Shown: one piece after another, positions 3,737 to 39,949 of the stretch | Layout: each line of letters opens with the position of its first letter | Numbering within the stretch: the first letter of the stretch is position 1 | Source: Bacillus sp. ISL-55 | Lineage (GTDB): Bacteria; Bacillota; Bacilli; Bacillales; Cytobacillaceae | DNA: 44,549 nt | Reading direction: 5' to 3' | Assembly: GCF_018613155.1 (NCBI RefSeq) | Contig: NZ_JAGGQU010000018.1 | Coordinates: 139,144 to 183,692, forward strand | Notes under the pieces: generated by a model | The model's input: only the letters and a program-made list of their open reading frames with translations | Told to the model about the DNA's origin: nothing | Database searches by the model: none | Program-made: the position numbers and the translations under genes

Positions 3737-4129
3737 TTAGGATATGCTCTGCTTTACTTTAGACAGAACACCATTAATAAATCGGCTTGATTGGTCATCC
3801 CCATATAATTTAGCAATTTCGATCGCTTCATCAAGAACGACATTCATCGGTACCTCTTCGTTGCAATACTTCAACTCGTATACGGCCAGACGAAGGAGAT
3901 TACGGTCAACCGCTGCAAGTCGGTCGAGGGACCACTTTTCCAGGTAGACCTTGATCTCCTCGTCAATTTCCTGCTGGTGCTCCACTGTGCCGTTTACAAG
4001 CTTGTTCAAATAATCATCCCCGGCTTCTTCTTCAAGCACATGTTCAATCGCGTCTGAAATTTCCACCTTGCTTATATCAATCTGGAATAAGGCTTGTAAT
4101 GCCTTTTCTCGTGCTGTTCTTCTTTTCAT
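3737..4129 (-). CDS. nusB: Transcription antitermination factor NusB
   Basis: RNA-binding factor that, with NusE (S10), binds boxA RNA and keeps polymerase processive on rRNA operons. The 130-aa, all-helical protein has the family start MKRRTAREKALQALFQID and the C-terminal blocks RNLLRLAVYEL and NEAIEIAKLYG-like DEAIEIAKLYGDDQSSRFING. The start ATG follows a purine-rich stretch with AAGGAG. It heads the nusB-folD-xseAB-ispA run. Upstream, where B. subtilis has yqhY directly, this genome has the 52-bp repeat array. Confidence 0.95.
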   Translation of the reverse strand: MKRRTAREKALQALFQIDISKVEISDAIEHVLEEEAGDDYLNKLVNGTVEHQQEIDEEIKVYLEKWSLDRLAAVDRNLLRLAVYELKYCNEEVPMNVVLDEAIEIAKLYGDDQSSRFINGVLSKVKQSIS

Positions 4130-4333: not shown

Positions 4334-4980
4334 TTTTTTTGTCCGAACCTGGGTCTGCTGCGGAAAGCTTTCCCTCTACAGCATGAGATTTTGTCCGAAC
4401 CTGGGTCTACTTTGGACAACTTTCCCTCTACAGCATGAGATTTTGTCCGAACTTGGGGCTGCTTCGGACAACTTTTCCTCTACACCCCGAGATTTTGTCC
4501 GAACCTGGGCCTACTTCGGACAGCTTTTCCTCTACAGCATGAGATTTTGTCCGAACATGGGCCTACTTCGGACAGCTTTCACTCTACAGCACGAAATCCT
4601 GTCCGAACTTGGGCCTACTTCGGACAGCTTTTCCTCTACAGCACGAGATTTTGTCCGAACCTGGACCTACTTCGGACAGCTTTTCCTCTACAGCATGAGA
4701 TTTTGTCCGAACATGGGCCTACTTCGGACAACTTTTCCTCTACACCCCGAGATTTTGTCCGAACCTGGGCCTACTTCGGACAGCTTTTCCTCTACAGCAT
4801 GAGATTTTGTCCGAACTTGAGCCTACTTCGGACAGCTTTCACTCTACAGCACGAAATCCTGTCCGAACTTGGGCCTACTTCAGACAGCTTTTCCTCTACA
4901 GCATGAGATTTTGTCCGAACATGGGCCTACTTCAGACAGCTTTCCCTCTACAGCATGAGATTTTATCCGAACTTTAGCTA
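4334..4980. repeat. Tandem 52-bp stem-loop repeat, array 1
   Basis: Thirteen units in exact 52-bp register starting at 4337, 4389, 4441 and so on to 4961. Each unit begins TTTT, then the arm GTCCGAA, an 11-nt spacer (often CCTGGGCCTAC), the arm TTCGGACA, then about 22 nt such as GCTTTTCCTCTACAGCATGA. The arms can pair over 8 bp. The first and last units have a decayed arm; the eleven inner ones keep it, with a few G-T or C-A pairs. Because 52 is not a multiple of three, long open frames run through the array in two phases, but they lack ribosome sites and only mirror the repeat. The array sits between the yqhY terminator and nusB. The flanks 4130-4333 and 4981-5030 have no gene; 5011-5023 is the palindrome GGAAAATTTCCTC, also found at the edge of array 2. 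Confidence 0.95.
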
Positions 4981-5030
4981 ACTGTCGATTACTTAATCCT
5001 AAACTTTGAAGGAAAATTTCCTCAACCAAC

Positions 5031-5065
5031 AAAAAAACCAAAGGCATGCATAATTATGCCTTTGG
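5031..5065 (-). terminator. Terminator after yqhY
   Basis: Ten-base-pair stem (CCAAAGGCAT with ATGCCTTTGG, loop of 8 nt) followed on the minus strand by a run of seven U. It closes the accB-accC-yqhY operon and separates it from array 1 and nusB. Confidence 0.9.
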
Positions 5066-5073
5066 TTCGGTGG

Positions 5074-5484
5074 TTAAACTTCTTGTTCTACTTCAGGTTC
5101 TACTTTTTGGTTTTCGAACTGGACGCCGACTACATGGATATTTACTTCAGTTGCATCGAGTGCAGTCATGTTCAATAATGCCTGGCGGATATTATCCTGG
5201 ATTTTTTGGGCAACCACAGGAATGGAAACGCCAAACTTCATGACACAATAAACGTCAACCTTGATTCCTTCTTCGGCAAGCTCGACTTTTACACCTTTGC
5301 CGTGATTTTTCTTGCCTAGTCTTTCAACCACTCCAGCCGCGAAGCTGCCGCGCATTTGCGTGACACCTTCTACTTCGGATGCAGCGATGCTTGCAATGAC
5401 TTCGATTACTTCAGGTGCAATTTCCACTTTCCCTAAGCCGTTCTCATCATGGCTCATTTCAAGTAAATGTTGCTGTTCACTCAT
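5074..5484 (-). CDS. yqhY: Asp23/Gls24 family protein YqhY
   Basis: Member of the Asp23 (DUF322) family encoded with accBC. In B. subtilis YqhY is reported to influence acetyl-CoA carboxylase activity; that role is from knowledge of the family, not visible here. The 136-aa protein shows the family core GKVEIAPEVIEVIASIAASEVEGV, then VERLGKKNHGKGVKVEL and VDVYCVMKFGVSIPVVAQKIQ, and an acidic tail. No signal peptide or membrane segment is present. It lies 14 nt downstream of accC on the same strand and is followed by a strong terminator, so it is the last gene of the carboxylase operon. Confidence 0.9.
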   Translation of the reverse strand: MSEQQHLLEMSHDENGLGKVEIAPEVIEVIASIAASEVEGVTQMRGSFAAGVVERLGKKNHGKGVKVELAEEGIKVDVYCVMKFGVSIPVVAQKIQDNIRQALLNMTALDATEVNIHVVGVQFENQKVEPEVEQEV

Positions 5485-26801: not shown

Positions 26802-27182
26802 TTGGATACACTTATCTTTTTAATCGTCCTAACAGTTGCGGTTATTCTTTACTCTGTGTTTATGTATTTCCGCCAGAAAAAAATCCTCAAGACCCTGACA
26901 GAGGAAGAATTTATTGCAGGTTACCGTAAAGCGCAGTTAATTGATGTCCGTGAACCGAATGAATTCGCTGGTGGACACATTTTAGGCGCAAGAAATATCC
27001 CGCTTACCCAGCTTAAGACACGCCTGAAGGAAATCAGACCGGACAAGCCAGTCTACCTATACTGCCAGAGCGGATCTCGCAGCGGACGTGCTGCACAGAT
27101 GCTTTACAAAAAAGGCTATAAGGATCTCAACCAGCTACAAGGCGGCTTCAAAAAATGGGGCGGCAAAGTCAAAGCTAAATAA
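26802..27182 (+). CDS. yqhL: Membrane-anchored rhodanese YqhL
   Basis: A 126-aa protein with one N-terminal membrane helix (about residues 3-22) and a cytoplasmic rhodanese domain with LIDVREPNEFAGGHILGA and the active-site loop CQSGSRSGR (Cys88), ending QGGFKKWGG. Likely a sulfur carrier or redox protein. The start is TTG with AAAGGAG about 10 nt upstream; an ATG between them is out of frame and stops after eight codons. The position next to lipM is the same as in B. subtilis. Confidence 0.9.
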   Translation: MDTLIFLIVLTVAVILYSVFMYFRQKKILKTLTEEEFIAGYRKAQLIDVREPNEFAGGHILGARNIPLTQLKTRLKEIRPDKPVYLYCQSGSRSGRAAQMLYKKGYKDLNQLQGGFKKWGGKVKAK

Positions 27183-27201: not shown

Positions 27202-27236
27202 ACCCCTCAGCTATGCTGGGGGGTTTAGCTTTTTTA
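27202..27236 (+). terminator. Terminator after yqhL
   Basis: ACCCCTCAGC pairs with GCTGGGGGGT (10 bp, one G-T), loop of 3 nt, followed by a T-rich tract. Array 2 starts about 30 nt beyond. Confidence 0.85.
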
Positions 27237-27268: not shown

Positions 27269-28020
27269 GACCAAGGAAAATTCCTCTTGGTTCGGACAAT
27301 ATCTCGGATTTCCCTCTTTATTTTGTCTGAAGTCATACTAGGTTCAGACAAAACCACAGCTTCTCCTCATTGTTTTGTCTGAAGTGACACCAAGTTCAGA
27401 CATAATCTCAATGTTTCCTCATCATTTTGTCTGAAGTCATACTAGGTTCAGACAAAACCACAGCTTCTCCTCGTTGTTTTGTCTGAAGTGACACCAAGTT
27501 CAGACATAATCTCAATGTTTCCTCATCATTTTGTCTGAATTCATACCAGGTTCGGACATAATCTCAGCTTCTCCTCGTTGTTTTGTCTGAAGTGACACCA
27601 AGTTCAGACAAAGTCTCTGCGCTTCCTCTTAATTTTGTCTGAAGACATACCAGGTTCGGACAAAACCACAGCTTCTCCTCGTTGTTTTGTCTGAAGTGAC
27701 ACCAATTTCAAACAAAATCTCAATGTTTCCTCATCATTTTGTCCGAAGTCATACTAGGTTCGGACAAAACCACAGCTTCTCCTCGTTGTTTTGTCTGAAG
27801 TGACACCAAGTTCAGACATAATCTCCATGTTCCCTCATCATTTTGTCTGAAGTCATACTAGGTTCGGACATAATCTCAGCTTCTCCTCGTTGTTTTGTCT
27901 GAAGTGACACCAATTTCAAACAAAATCTCAATGTTTCCTCATCATTTTGTCTGAAGTCATACTAGGTTCGGACAAAGTCACAGCTACCTCTTCTAACTTT
28001 GTCCGAAGCCTCTAGGATAC
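27269..28020. repeat. Tandem 52-bp stem-loop repeat, array 2
   Basis: Units start at 27321 and every 52 bp to 27997 without a single slip. Each has TTTT, arm GTCTGAA (some GTCCGAA), an 11-nt spacer, arm TTCAGACA or TTCGGACA, then about 22 nt. Thirteen units are complete; a left half-unit (3' arm at 27291) and a right half-unit (5' arm at 27997) border them. Two unit types alternate: one with spacer GTCATACTAGG and linker AAACCACAGCTTCTCCTCGT, the other with spacer GTGACACCAAG and linker TAATCTCAATGTTTCCTCAT, giving a 104-bp higher period. It lies between the converging yqhL and gcvPB genes, outside both terminators. A GGAAAATTCCTC palindrome marks its left edge. The 900-nt gap contains no gene. 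Confidence 0.95.
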
Positions 28021-28039: not shown

Positions 28040-28076
28040 TAAAAAAAGTCCTGCCAATAACAAACCTGGCAGGACT
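28040..28076 (-). terminator. Terminator after gcvPB
   Basis: AGTCCTGCCA pairs with TGGCAGGACT (10 bp), followed on the minus strand by a run of U. It ends the glycine cleavage operon. Confidence 0.9.
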
Positions 28077-28085
28077 CTTATCATA

Positions 28086-29549
28086 CTATTCTGCTTTCTG
28101 GTAGCGCAAAATCGGCTTCCTTGCAGCTGTGGTTTCATCCATTCTGCCGACCACTGTGGAGTGTGGCGCTTCCTGAACGATCTCTGGATTCTCTTCTGCT
28201 TCTTTGGCGATCTGGATCATCGCGTCGATGAAGGCATCGAGGGTTTCCTTAGATTCTGTTTCTGTCGGCTCGATCATGATTGCCTCTTCCACATTCAATG
28301 GGAAGTAGATTGTCGGCGGGTGATAGCCGAAGTCAAGCAGGCGTTTTGCGATATCCAATGTACGGACGCCAAGCTTCTTCTGGCGCTTGCCGCTTAGTAC
28401 GAATTCGTGCTTGCAATGCCTGTTGAATGGCAGGTCATAGTACTCTGCAAGTCTTCTCATCATATAGTTCGCGTTCAGCACTGCATACTCCGTCACGGCC
28501 TTCAAGCCATCAGGACCCATTGTGCGGATGTAGGTATATGCACGTACATTGATGCCGAAGTTGCCAAAGTATGGCTTAACCCTTCCGATTGACTGCGGAC
28601 GGTCGTAGTCGAACTTATAAACGCCATCCTGCTTTGTCAAGATTGGCTTTGGCAGGAATGGAATCAAATCTGCTTTGACACCGACTGGTCCTGAACCTGG
28701 ACCGCCGCCGCCGTGTGGGCCTGTGAATGTCTTATGAAGGTTCAAGTGAACAACGTCGAAGCCCATGTCGCCAGGACGTGCCTTCGACATAACAGCGTTA
28801 AGGTTCGCTCCATCATAGTAAAGCTTTCCGCCTGCGCCATGGACGATTTCAGCCATTTCAAGAATGTTTTCTTCGAATAGACCAAGAGTGTTCGGGTTAG
28901 TCAGCATTAATGCCGCTGTATCTTCACCGACAACCTTCTTCAGGTCTTCCAAATCAACAAGGCCGTTTTCATCTGATTTTACAGTGATCGTCTCAAAACC
29001 AGCTACTGTTGCGGATGCTGGGTTTGTTCCGTGAGCGGAGTCAGGAACGATTACCTTCGTACGCTTGTCGTCACCATTTGCTTCGTGATAAGCGCGGATC
29101 ATCATCAAGCCCGTCCACTCGCCGTGTGCACCGGCTGCCGGCTGAAGAGTCACTTCGTCCATGCCAGTGATTTCAATCAGGTGTTCCTGCAAGTCGTACA
29201 TCAATTCAAGCGCACCCTGGACAGAACTTTCATCCTGCAATGGATGCAAATGTGCAAAACCATTGAAGCGCGCAACATTTTCATTCATCTTTGGATTATA
29301 TTTCATCGTACATGATCCAAGCGGATAGAACCCGGAATCAACGCCGTGGTTGCGCTTGGATAGTGCAGTATAATGGCGCATGATATCAAGCTCGGAAGCC
29401 TCTGGAAGTTCTGGTTCTTCTTCGCGAAGGAATCCTTCTGGCAATAGCTCAGATAAGTCGGCTTCTGGAATATCCATTTCCGGCAGGCTGTATCCTACAC
29501 GGCCCGGTGTACTTAATTCAAAAATGAGTGGCTGATCTTCCTTATGCAT
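28086..29549 (-). CDS. gcvPB: Glycine dehydrogenase (decarboxylating), subunit 2
   Basis: PLP-binding subunit of the P-protein, which decarboxylates glycine and passes aminomethyl to lipoyl-GcvH. The 487-aa protein has [33 protein letters not shown], and the PLP lysine in [20 protein letters not shown]. The ATG of MHKEDQPL follows GGGGGAT by 5 nt and overlaps the end of gcvPA by 8 nt, so the two halves are made together. Third and last gene of the operon. Confidence 0.97.
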
Positions 29550-30888
29550 TGATATCCCCCATTTCCTTAACAAATGTATCGATTTCTTCTTTTGTTCTTA
29601 ATTCAGTTATCGCAACAAGCATGTGGTTTTCGAAATTGGAATCATCACGTCCAAGGTCATAGCCGCCGATTATGCCTTTTTCAAGAAGCATTTGGTTGAC
29701 TTCTTTTACCGGCTTATTCAGCTTGACAACGAACTCATTGAAAGTAGGTCCATCAAATGCGATTTCGAAGCCATTCTCTTTAAAAGCTTTCTTCGCATAA
29801 TGAGCTTTTTGAATATTGGCCACAGCCATTTCGCGAACGCCTTTTTTGCCAAGAGCAGTCATCGCTACTGAGGCAGCAAGTGCATTCAATGCCTGGTTTG
29901 AACAAATATTGGAAGTCGCTTTGTCACGGCGGATATGCTGTTCTCTCGCCTGAAGCGTCAATACGAATCCGCGGCGGCCCTGGTCATCCTTTGTCTGGCC
30001 GACTAGTCTGCCTGGAACTTTTCTCATGAGCTTTCCTGATACAGCGAAGTATCCACAGTGAGGGCCGCCGAATGCTGTCGGGATTCCGAAAGGCTGGGCG
30101 TCTCCAGTAACGATATCAGCACCGAACTTCCCTGGAGGCGTTAATGCTCCAAGTGCAAGCGGGTTACTTGATACAACGAACAATGATTTATTCTCATGTG
30201 CGATTGCTTCAATTTCCTTCATTGATTCAATGCTGCCGAAGAAGTTTGGATACTGAACGATGACAGCAGCTACTTCTTCACTTGCCATATCCTTCAGTGC
30301 TTCGAGGTCCGTTACGCCATCCTTGTGGGGTACTTCCACAACGTCAATATATTGACCTTTGGCGTATGATTTTACGACATCCTTGTATTCAGGATGGACA
30401 GCACTTGAAATCAAGACTTTCTTACGTCTTGTATGGCCTGCACTAAGCATCGCTGCTTCAGCAAGAGCTGTTCCACCGTCATACATGGATGAATTTGCTA
30501 CTTCCATGCCAGTCAATTCACAGATCATCGTCTGGAATTCAAAGATTGCCTGAAGTTCACCCTGGGAAATCTCTGGCTGGTAAGGTGTATAAGCAGTGTA
30601 AAACTCTGAGCGTGAAAGAACATGGTCAACAATTACTGGAATGTAGTGATCATATACACCAGCGCCTATAAATGAAGTATTCATTTTTAAATCGGCATTT
30701 TTTGCAGCCATCTTTGTCAGTTCTTTCATTAGAGCTGTTTCAGACTTGGCTGGTTTGATGTTGTATTCTCCGGCAAAACGGACTTTTTCAGGAATATCGC
30801 TGAACAGTTCATCGATCGATGAAACGCCGATGCTTTCCAACATTGCGGTTTTATCACTTTCAGTCAGCGGTAAATAGCGATGCTTCAT
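29542..30888 (-). CDS. gcvPA: Glycine dehydrogenase (decarboxylating), subunit 1
   Basis: N-terminal half of the P-protein in organisms with a split enzyme. The 448-aa protein starts [21 protein letters not shown] and has [53 protein letters not shown] and [19 protein letters not shown] (each in part). It lacks the PLP lysine, which is in subunit 2, as expected. It follows gcvT by 22 nt and overlaps gcvPB. Confidence 0.97.
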
Positions 30889-32144: not shown

Positions 32145-32301
32145 TTTCACCTGAAAGTTTACCTGTTTAGGCTTTCCCCTTGGGTGGCTCCCACTAATAA
32201 AGCGCTCTCCAGAGATGCGTCAAACAAGAGTTCTTTTGCCTGAGAGATTCACAAAGTTTGCTTGCTCCTTCGGCGCTACGTAAGTAGTCTCTCCCCTTGT
32301 T
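32137..32301 (-). promoter_or_regulatory. Tandem glycine riboswitch
   Basis: Two consecutive aptamers on the minus strand. The first starts GGGGAGAGACTAC, has GCGCCGAAGGAGCAAGC and CTCAGGCAAAAGAACTC. The second starts CTCTGGAGAGCGC, has GGGAGCCACCCAAGGGG and AAAGCC, and closes with CTTTCAGGTGAAAGGACAG. These are the hallmark segments of the gcvT element. Glycine binding should turn on the gcv operon by disrupting the terminator at 32100-32144. The rest of 32018-32480 has the gcvT leader, the riboswitch promoter region (no box I trust) and the yqhH promoter region. Confidence 0.95.
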
Positions 32302-32480
32302 GTCATCCGCATTTATATTATTTTCACAATTGGGCATGCTAGACGTTATTACACATGTCTGTAAACTGACTATTTAAAGCTATAAAATGACAAATTTCAA
32401 AACATTCAAAAGCTAACTTCATCCTACCATTAGAGAGCCAATTTCGGCAATATATTTATACTTTAAAAGAGGTGGATAAA

Positions 32481-39877: not shown

Positions 39878-39949
39878 TGGGCTATAGCCAAGCGGTAAGG
39901 CAACGGACTTTGACTCCGTCATGCGTTGGTTCGAATCCAGCTAGCCCAG
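39878..39949 (+). tRNA. tRNA-Gln (anticodon TTG)
   Basis: A 72-nt cloverleaf: acceptor TGGGCTA/TAGCCCA with discriminator G, D-arm with AGCGGTAAGG, anticodon stem ACGGA/TCCGT with loop CTTTGAC (anticodon TTG, reads CAA and CAG), and T-arm GGTTCGAATCC. CCA is not encoded. It lies alone between the divergent or convergent neighbours comGA and mgsR. Confidence 0.97.

Follow-up and report, generated by a model that had tools for sequence, protein, structure and literature searches.

Two repeat arrays of a Mesobacillus genome suggest that 52-nt repeats thought to be unrelated in sequence often share a hidden inverted repeat of fixed size, on the same helix face in each copy

Two arrays of 52-bp tandem repeats are present in the window, that is, the whole analyzed stretch of 44,549 nucleotides from Bacillus sp. 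ISL-55. Array 1 is located between the genes of NusB-like (3737..4129, minus strand) and Asp23/YqhY-like (5074..5484, minus strand) proteins, and array 2, between convergent genes of a rhodanese-like protein, YqhL (26802..27182, plus strand), and a GcvPB-like glycine dehydrogenase subunit (28086..29573, minus strand); the names NusB, Asp23/YqhY, rhodanese YqhL and GcvPB are those that we presume from the sequences. The best match of the GcvPB-like protein among the 80 loci kept comes from M. subterraneus (97%), and the window is part of a Mesobacillus draft genome. As stated in the first-pass annotation, both arrays lie just outside terminators: terminator-like hairpins face array 1 from the 3′ side of the Asp23/YqhY-type gene (5035..5068, minus strand) and array 2 from the 3′ sides of the rhodanese-type gene (27202..27224, plus strand) and gcvPB (28044..28079, minus strand). 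The scan for terminator-like sites reports none within array 1 or 2, and hence the arrays themselves were rejected as intrinsic terminators. When the whole window is compared to Rfam, just a glycine riboswitch near the gcv genes (32218–32306, minus strand) and a tRNA gene (39878–39949, plus strand) reach gathering scores, and array 2 has sub-threshold matches only; as no Rfam match at the gathering threshold covers the arrays, a known structured-RNA family was rejected as well.

Both arrays are real, the excess over chance being very large: the motif TTTTGTCNGAA-N11-TTCNGACA has 49 matches in the window (both strands, at most three mismatches), compared to the mean of 0.36 and maximum of 4 in 100 shuffles. 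The arrays follow the same plan, with head-to-tail units of 52 bp, each comprised of a 27-bp inverted repeat (8-bp arms and an 11-bp middle) and a 25-bp linker. Array 1 (4337..4938, stems at 4340–4938, plus strand by intrinsic orientation) has 12 recognized units of the form TTTTGTCCGAA-N11-TTCRGACA, and array 2 (27324..27974, minus strand by intrinsic orientation), 13 recognized units, mostly TGTCTGAA with TTCRGACA; all 11 spacings in the former and all 12 in the latter equal 52 bp, in line with the identical period noted earlier for the two arrays. Reading of the sequence adds a degenerate 13th unit of array 1 (TTTATCCGAA, 4961..4990, plus strand), which has lost its right arm, and two lone arms in register with array 2, the right one, TTCGGACA, one unit before it (27291..27298), and the left one, TGTCCGAA, one unit after it (28000..28007).

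The two arrays point in opposite directions, and once array 2 is turned to the orientation of array 1, both match the consensus of 48 arrays, TGTCYGAAC-M-TGG-NNNNN-ACTTCRGACA, including its positions 9 (C), 11 (T), 12 (G), 18 (A) and 19 (C), so the earlier statement that their loops differ almost completely does not stand. In array 2, the exact TGTCTGAA/TTCAGACA stem is present in 6 of 13 units, and TTCAAACA, in two of the eight units with a T-A fifth pair. At this fifth pair (plus strand), array 2 indeed has mainly T-A (8 of 13 units), with T-G in four units and C-G in one, and array 1, described as C-G, has C-G in 10 of 12 units and C-A in two. The palindrome GGAAAATT(T)CCTC noted at one edge of each array is near both of them, but it is found within 120 bp of just these two among 50 arrays, and was therefore rejected as a trait of the family.

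We searched the own genome of the window, the genus, the order and the class, as well as viral contigs. The whole-genome scan suggested in the first-pass annotation reveals plentiful further copies, 240 forward and 188 reverse pattern matches with at most two mismatches in 4,519,545 bases of 69 contigs, compared to 0 and 1 in controls. The proposed common family of elements, which a lack of further copies in the genus would have spoken against, is supported by matches with at most one mismatch in 19 of 21 genus genomes (range 1–474, none in controls); Mesobacillus genomes poor in arrays are G008 and G014, with no matches, and G012, with one. Order-wide, matches are found in 27 of 397 genomes representing 13 of 135 genera, some genomes having a single match. 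A three-unit pattern occurs in one stretch of the viral contigs; IMGVR_UViG_3300007759_000741, filed as viral, contains three TGTC-N19-GACA units at 52 bp (L314, 3519–3649). Among 80 named gcvPB loci, the scan for paired arms with any loop and any period finds the 52/11 geometry in one, from Peribacillus tepidiphilus. A 51-bp array with TCTGGCATC...GATGCCAGA arms is seen in Bacillus sp. RO2 (L084, 3690–3946).

Comparison of positions in relatives gives a mixed picture, as both sites recur in some species and arrays are lost or absent at them in others. The nusB gap of 16 genus genomes holds at least two units in eight, one unit in two and none in six, and the recognized copy number at the nusB-yqhY site varies by species from 2 to 20 units. 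The yqhL gap, analyzed in 13 genomes, has at least two units (degenerate ones included) in six, is cut by a contig end in two and has none in five; in M. subterraneus DSM 13966, no array was found within 10 kb of gcvPB. Since this strain lacks the gcvPB array and some genomes are free of arrays or poor in them, no array need be essential. On the chromosome scale, pattern matches are seemingly depleted around the origin (dnaA at base 1; L261, L263, L264), which is suggestive only, as these genomes share ancestry: the 43 listed places in G016 (4.81 Mb) all fall in the interval 0.35–3.80 Mb, and exact matches are located within 0.89–3.62 Mb in G009 (4.63 Mb) and within 0.43–4.08 Mb in G011 (4.80 Mb). 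The intrinsic orientation of arrays in G016 tends to be minus in the first part of the chromosome and plus in the last, as if tied to the direction of replication or of genes.

The geometry is nearly constant. Neighboring units are spaced by 52 bp in 341 of 361 cases (51 arrays from the window and stretches of three Mesobacillus genomes), the middle is 11 bp long in 403 of 410 and the linker 25 bp long in 401 of 426. As units of one array copy each other, the meaningful count is that of arrays, and the modal spacing is 52 bp in 61 of 64 arrays with at least three units. These include 10 of the 11 examined outside Mesobacillus, the remaining one (L260) having the spacing of 50; loops and linkers of the arrays from outside the genus differ from the Mesobacillus ones.

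None of 49 arrays overlaps a gene predicted with our home-made codon score, and, given that the period of 52 is not a multiple of three, a coding role was rejected. The gaps holding these arrays are convergent in 16 cases, co-directional in 31 and divergent in two, compared to 33, 124 and 46, respectively, among all gaps of at least 50 bp in the same loci, arrays included; hence arrays avoid divergent gaps. A terminator-like hairpin separates the gene end from the array in 43 of 61 cases, compared to 39 of 95 other gene ends, and the median distance from the stop codon to the first unit is 117 bp. In co-directional gaps, the orientation of arrays is opposite to that of the genes in 21 of 31 cases.

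The main argument of the first-pass annotation was compensatory change at the fifth pair, and it was rejected. In the TGTCYGAA subfamily this pair is C-G in 214 units, C-A in 79, T-G in 57 and T-A in 29, close to independence, with mismatches in 136 of 379 units and both mismatch types on one strand in nine arrays. A shuffle test of covariation shows no significant pairing, as the observed level is reached by 762 of 5000 shuffles within arrays and by 1131 of 5000 between arrays. Thus, the difference between C-G in array 1 and T-A in array 2 is no evidence of compensation, and the arms vary independently at this pair. One true two-sided change occurs in G001 at the site of array 1, where all 20 units have TGTCCAAA with TTTGGACA, but these units have been copied from one another. 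At the level of arrays, pairing immediately beyond the 8-bp arms (T-A or C-G) does exceed shuffles, 44.0 compared to 31.9 with standard deviation 3.4 in 68 arrays, possibly due to subfamily ancestry.

Between subfamilies, in contrast, two-sided change with pairing retained is observed. The pattern TGTC-N19-GACA-N25-TGTC-N19-GACA is present in 9 of 398 genomes of the class, from 6 of 145 genera, with 615 matches in the own genome, and the reversed TGTC-N19-GACA tandem pattern has no matches in all 398 class genomes. Arrays of this type with quite different inner arms occur in the own genome and five other genera, for instance, the own genome has both TGTCAAGATT...ATCTTGACA and TGTCCGTCAT...ATGACGGACA, G195 has TGTCCAGTAGAA...TTCTACTGGACA, and G539 has TGTCCTTCAT...ATGAAGGACA; the TGTC and GACA ends are invariant among them by construction of the search. 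We considered 23 distinct arrays among the matches listed, nine from the own-genome sample of 395,819 bases, three from other Mesobacillus and 11 from other genera. They form 97 Watson-Crick pairs at pairs 5–10, and this level was never reached when right arms were reassigned at random between arrays 2000 times; the same (0 of 2000) is true for the nine own-genome arrays alone and for 19 arrays representing one per distinct inner 5-mer, though such shuffles take no account of relatedness, and the arrays within a genome have a common ancestry. Counting pairs in one unit per array yields 84.3% standard pairs, compared to 68.9% after shuffling and 25.5–45.2% for slid partners, and 37 cells with two-sided change, compared to 15.2 (0 of 500 shuffles); two of the five measures, namely, pairs in which both members have changed (6 versus 5.6) and further pair types (16 versus 16.1), stay at the level of shuffles. 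Hence the inner arms remain complementary between subfamilies. Arm pairing alone does not prove an RNA fold, as a dyad-symmetric DNA site or template-switch correction is equal in effect.

Five turns of the 10.4-bp helix make 52 bp. Linkers of 45 Mesobacillus arrays have AT profiles in phase with the arms at 10.4 bp (r 0.71, p 0.0002), and this trend is weaker in nine arrays from other genera (r 0.48, p 0.006), where the best period of linkers taken alone is 8.8. In 19 non-CGAA arrays the 52/5 harmonic dominates over the whole unit (power 30 versus 4 for the next one) and the linker follows the arm phase (r 0.75, 0 of 4000 permutations), the linker alone being fitted slightly better by 52/6 than by 52/5. 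When 13 genus-level groups are averaged equally, r is 0.73, a value reached in 18 of 4000 permutations; in single groups, r at 10.4 ranges from 0.00 to 0.63. We regard the AT register as moderate evidence for a function at the level of duplex DNA.

The window arrays are members of the class of 52-nt tandem repeats described in Bacillus by Subirana and Messeguer in 2021. According to the accessible part of their study (PMC8161180), these Firmicutes-only repeats have a constant size and variable sequence and are present in approximately 30% of 176 Bacillus genomes, the class being defined by a 52-nt unit (51–53), at least four repeats and at least 60% of identical length; the species sharing them include B. 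subterraneus (Table 1 note). For B. subtilis 168, in contrast, one genome is listed there with a single tandem repeat, located in a coding region. The likeness comprises the unit size, given 12 and 13 units with all spacings equal to 52, non-coding location, given the lack of overlap with predicted genes and a period that is no multiple of three, patchy distribution among species, and the presence of several families in one genome. Indeed, Tandem Repeats Finder reports 19 rows of period 52, 53, 104 or 105 with different units in 395,819 bases of the own genome, one array being split into two rows; 10 of these 19 rows have tandem TGTC-N19-GACA units, and 15 of 18 arrays with period 51–53 hold an inverted repeat equaled in no more than 3 of 60 shuffles. 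These 15 include a second, 53-bp family of the own genome, with ACCCTTAT/ATAAGGGT arms and without TGTC (L293 1530, L294 5944, L302 1083, L303 4661). The own genome also has repeats of 40–41 bp formed by halves of about 20 bp (L299 10256, L302 16339, L305 14566), which resemble the 20–21-nt class of the same authors.

The published sequences offer a comparison free of our search pattern. Among 24 published consensi of 51–53 nt, TGTC-N19-GACA is exact in five and has one mismatch in two, compared to about 0.02 exact fits expected by chance (our own arithmetic, assuming equal base frequencies), and this is unbiased support for the TGTC/GACA core; the TGTCTGAA...TTCGGACA arms recur in one published family, alkalitelluris 71_52_7. 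Of the 24 consensi, 15 hold an inverted repeat equaled in no more than 5 of 100 shuffles and nine do not, and thus the inverted-repeat design is common among 52-nt repeats, but not universal. In its accessible part PMC8161180 reports no sequence conservation between species, states that signals and their reverse often occur in one repeat, and proposes a polymerizing nucleoid protein that needs a constant repeat size, or small RNAs; it does not state a shared inverted-repeat core, complementarity between families or the helical register, and the words hairpin and palindrom- are absent from its main text. The J. Bacteriol. 2020 paper lies outside this comparison, and no further literature on a 52-nt inverted repeat was found among the matches listed.

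Other repeat systems are similar in part. STAR elements of staphylococci, as far as the accessible text describes them (PMC3532100), also form intergenic locus-specific arrays of approximately 50-nt tandem units, in which a short motif is conserved and the spacers vary, but this motif is a GC-rich direct repeat of 14 bp, T(G/A/T)TGTTG(G/T)GGCCC(C/A), not described as a 27-bp inverted repeat. CRISPR arrays share a palindromic repeat with a spacer at fixed spacing, whereas here the 25-bp linker repeats together with the unit, there are no unique spacers, and a genome has dozens of arrays.

The span, linker and period fixed across genera, the AT phasing and the location behind terminators favor duplex DNA read by a protein on one face. 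We tentatively suggest, with somewhat less than even confidence, that the arrays are one-face DNA scaffolds for a putative dyad-symmetric nucleoid or boundary protein. Dyad-symmetric 27-bp sites, with invariant TGTC...GACA and variable complementary inner arms, would be offered at intervals of 52 bp, equal to five helical turns; a putative symmetric DNA-binding protein might bind along a single helix face, its copies aligning or polymerizing, and the protein-coated stretches just outside transcription units could then serve nucleoid organization or delimit transcription units. Protein binding, the dimer state of the protein and nucleoid organization are the steps that we infer. Speaking against the scaffold, arrays are missing from some genomes and sites, as described above, linker-only spectra single out no 10.4-bp period, and complementary inner arms that are free in sequence are explained more naturally by strand pairing than by contacts of one protein; being complementary and sequence-free, the inner arms favor either strand pairing or a symmetric site with drifting specificity.

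Pairing could be selected in a transcript, if the arrays were transcribed as strings of short hairpins acting as an RNA sponge, RNase/Hfq-type sites or small RNAs, which we consider unlikely. It would fit the covariation of inner arms between subfamilies, the folding of single units as hairpins (–8 to –12 kcal/mol, z from –1.1 to –2.5) and the occurrence of B. coagulans 52-nt repeats in RNA-seq reads, as given in the accessible text of a Genes 2021 paper of Subirana and Messeguer (PMC8625621). One-strand wobble could also explain the many C-A and T-G cells, with a weak lean in this direction on the read-through strand of co-directional settings (U-G in 45 mixed units and C-A in 26; 11 versus 6 arrays), but in the nine arrays mentioned above a single strand carries mismatches of both types, and in a 15-unit array of G009 the fifth pair is C-A in 15 of 15 units, the listed units having mostly TGG versus ACA at pair 3, so that two of eight pairs are broken. 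Moreover, the arrays are usually behind terminators, no Rfam family covers them in the window at the gathering threshold, with no meaningful score for array 2, and a hairpin has no evident need of the fixed loop, linker and period, which this reading leaves unexplained.

Alternatively, the arrays may be functionless as such, with units amplified by slippage or unequal crossing-over and arms kept complementary by template-switch (quasipalindrome) correction; we judge this rather improbable. Units of one array are near copies, their number varies by species at one site (the 2–20 units of nusB-yqhY), presence across genomes is patchy, and the uniform 20 units of G001 are as expected from copying one changed unit, all of which agrees with a mutational origin. 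Avoidance of divergent gaps does not discriminate, since harm to promoters makes it compatible with neutrality too. Conversely, the recurrence of one period and one 27-bp span among unrelated sequences from several genera and the in-register AT phasing of linkers speak against it, and correction would have left the fifth-pair mismatches in more than a third of units (136 of 379). Far less probable is the spread of REP/BIME-like non-autonomous elements by a RAYT (TnpA-REP) transposase. Enterobacterial REP/BIME are likewise intergenic palindromes 3′ of genes, in tandem clusters, and the genomes studied here have many intergenic palindromes downstream of genes; however, accessible descriptions give alternating orientation for BIMEs and a GTAG/CGTC tag beside the REP palindrome, whereas our arrays are strictly head-to-tail at 52 bp. 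The RAYT (Y1) association is not seen in the array-rich genomes G006 and G015, with no Y1_Tnp matches despite 333 and 455 pattern matches, while G012 has six Y1_Tnp matches and one pattern match; as Y1_Tnp counts do not track arrays, this spread was rejected.

Taken further, the one-face scaffold reading leads to a speculative and rather doubtful generalization, namely, that many seemingly unrelated 52-nt satellites of Bacillales are one chromatin-like element, built of TGTC-N19-GACA sites in which the two inner arms co-vary and which are read by co-evolving relatives of one dyad-symmetric protein, polymerizing with five helical turns per site and insulating behind terminators. If true, this would be a bacterial satellite-based chromatin system, and a chromosome-structuring protein bound to satellites would be unusual in bacteria. 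If the arrays are purely mutational, they would clearly exemplify how palindromes can stay perfect in the absence of selection. The 52-nt satellites were published in 2020–2021 without a common sequence or function. Our data suggest that such repeats, thought to be unrelated in sequence, often share a hidden inverted repeat of fixed size on the same helix face in each copy, and a shared 27-bp inverted repeat in a helically phased frame, if true of many of them, would make their function directly testable.
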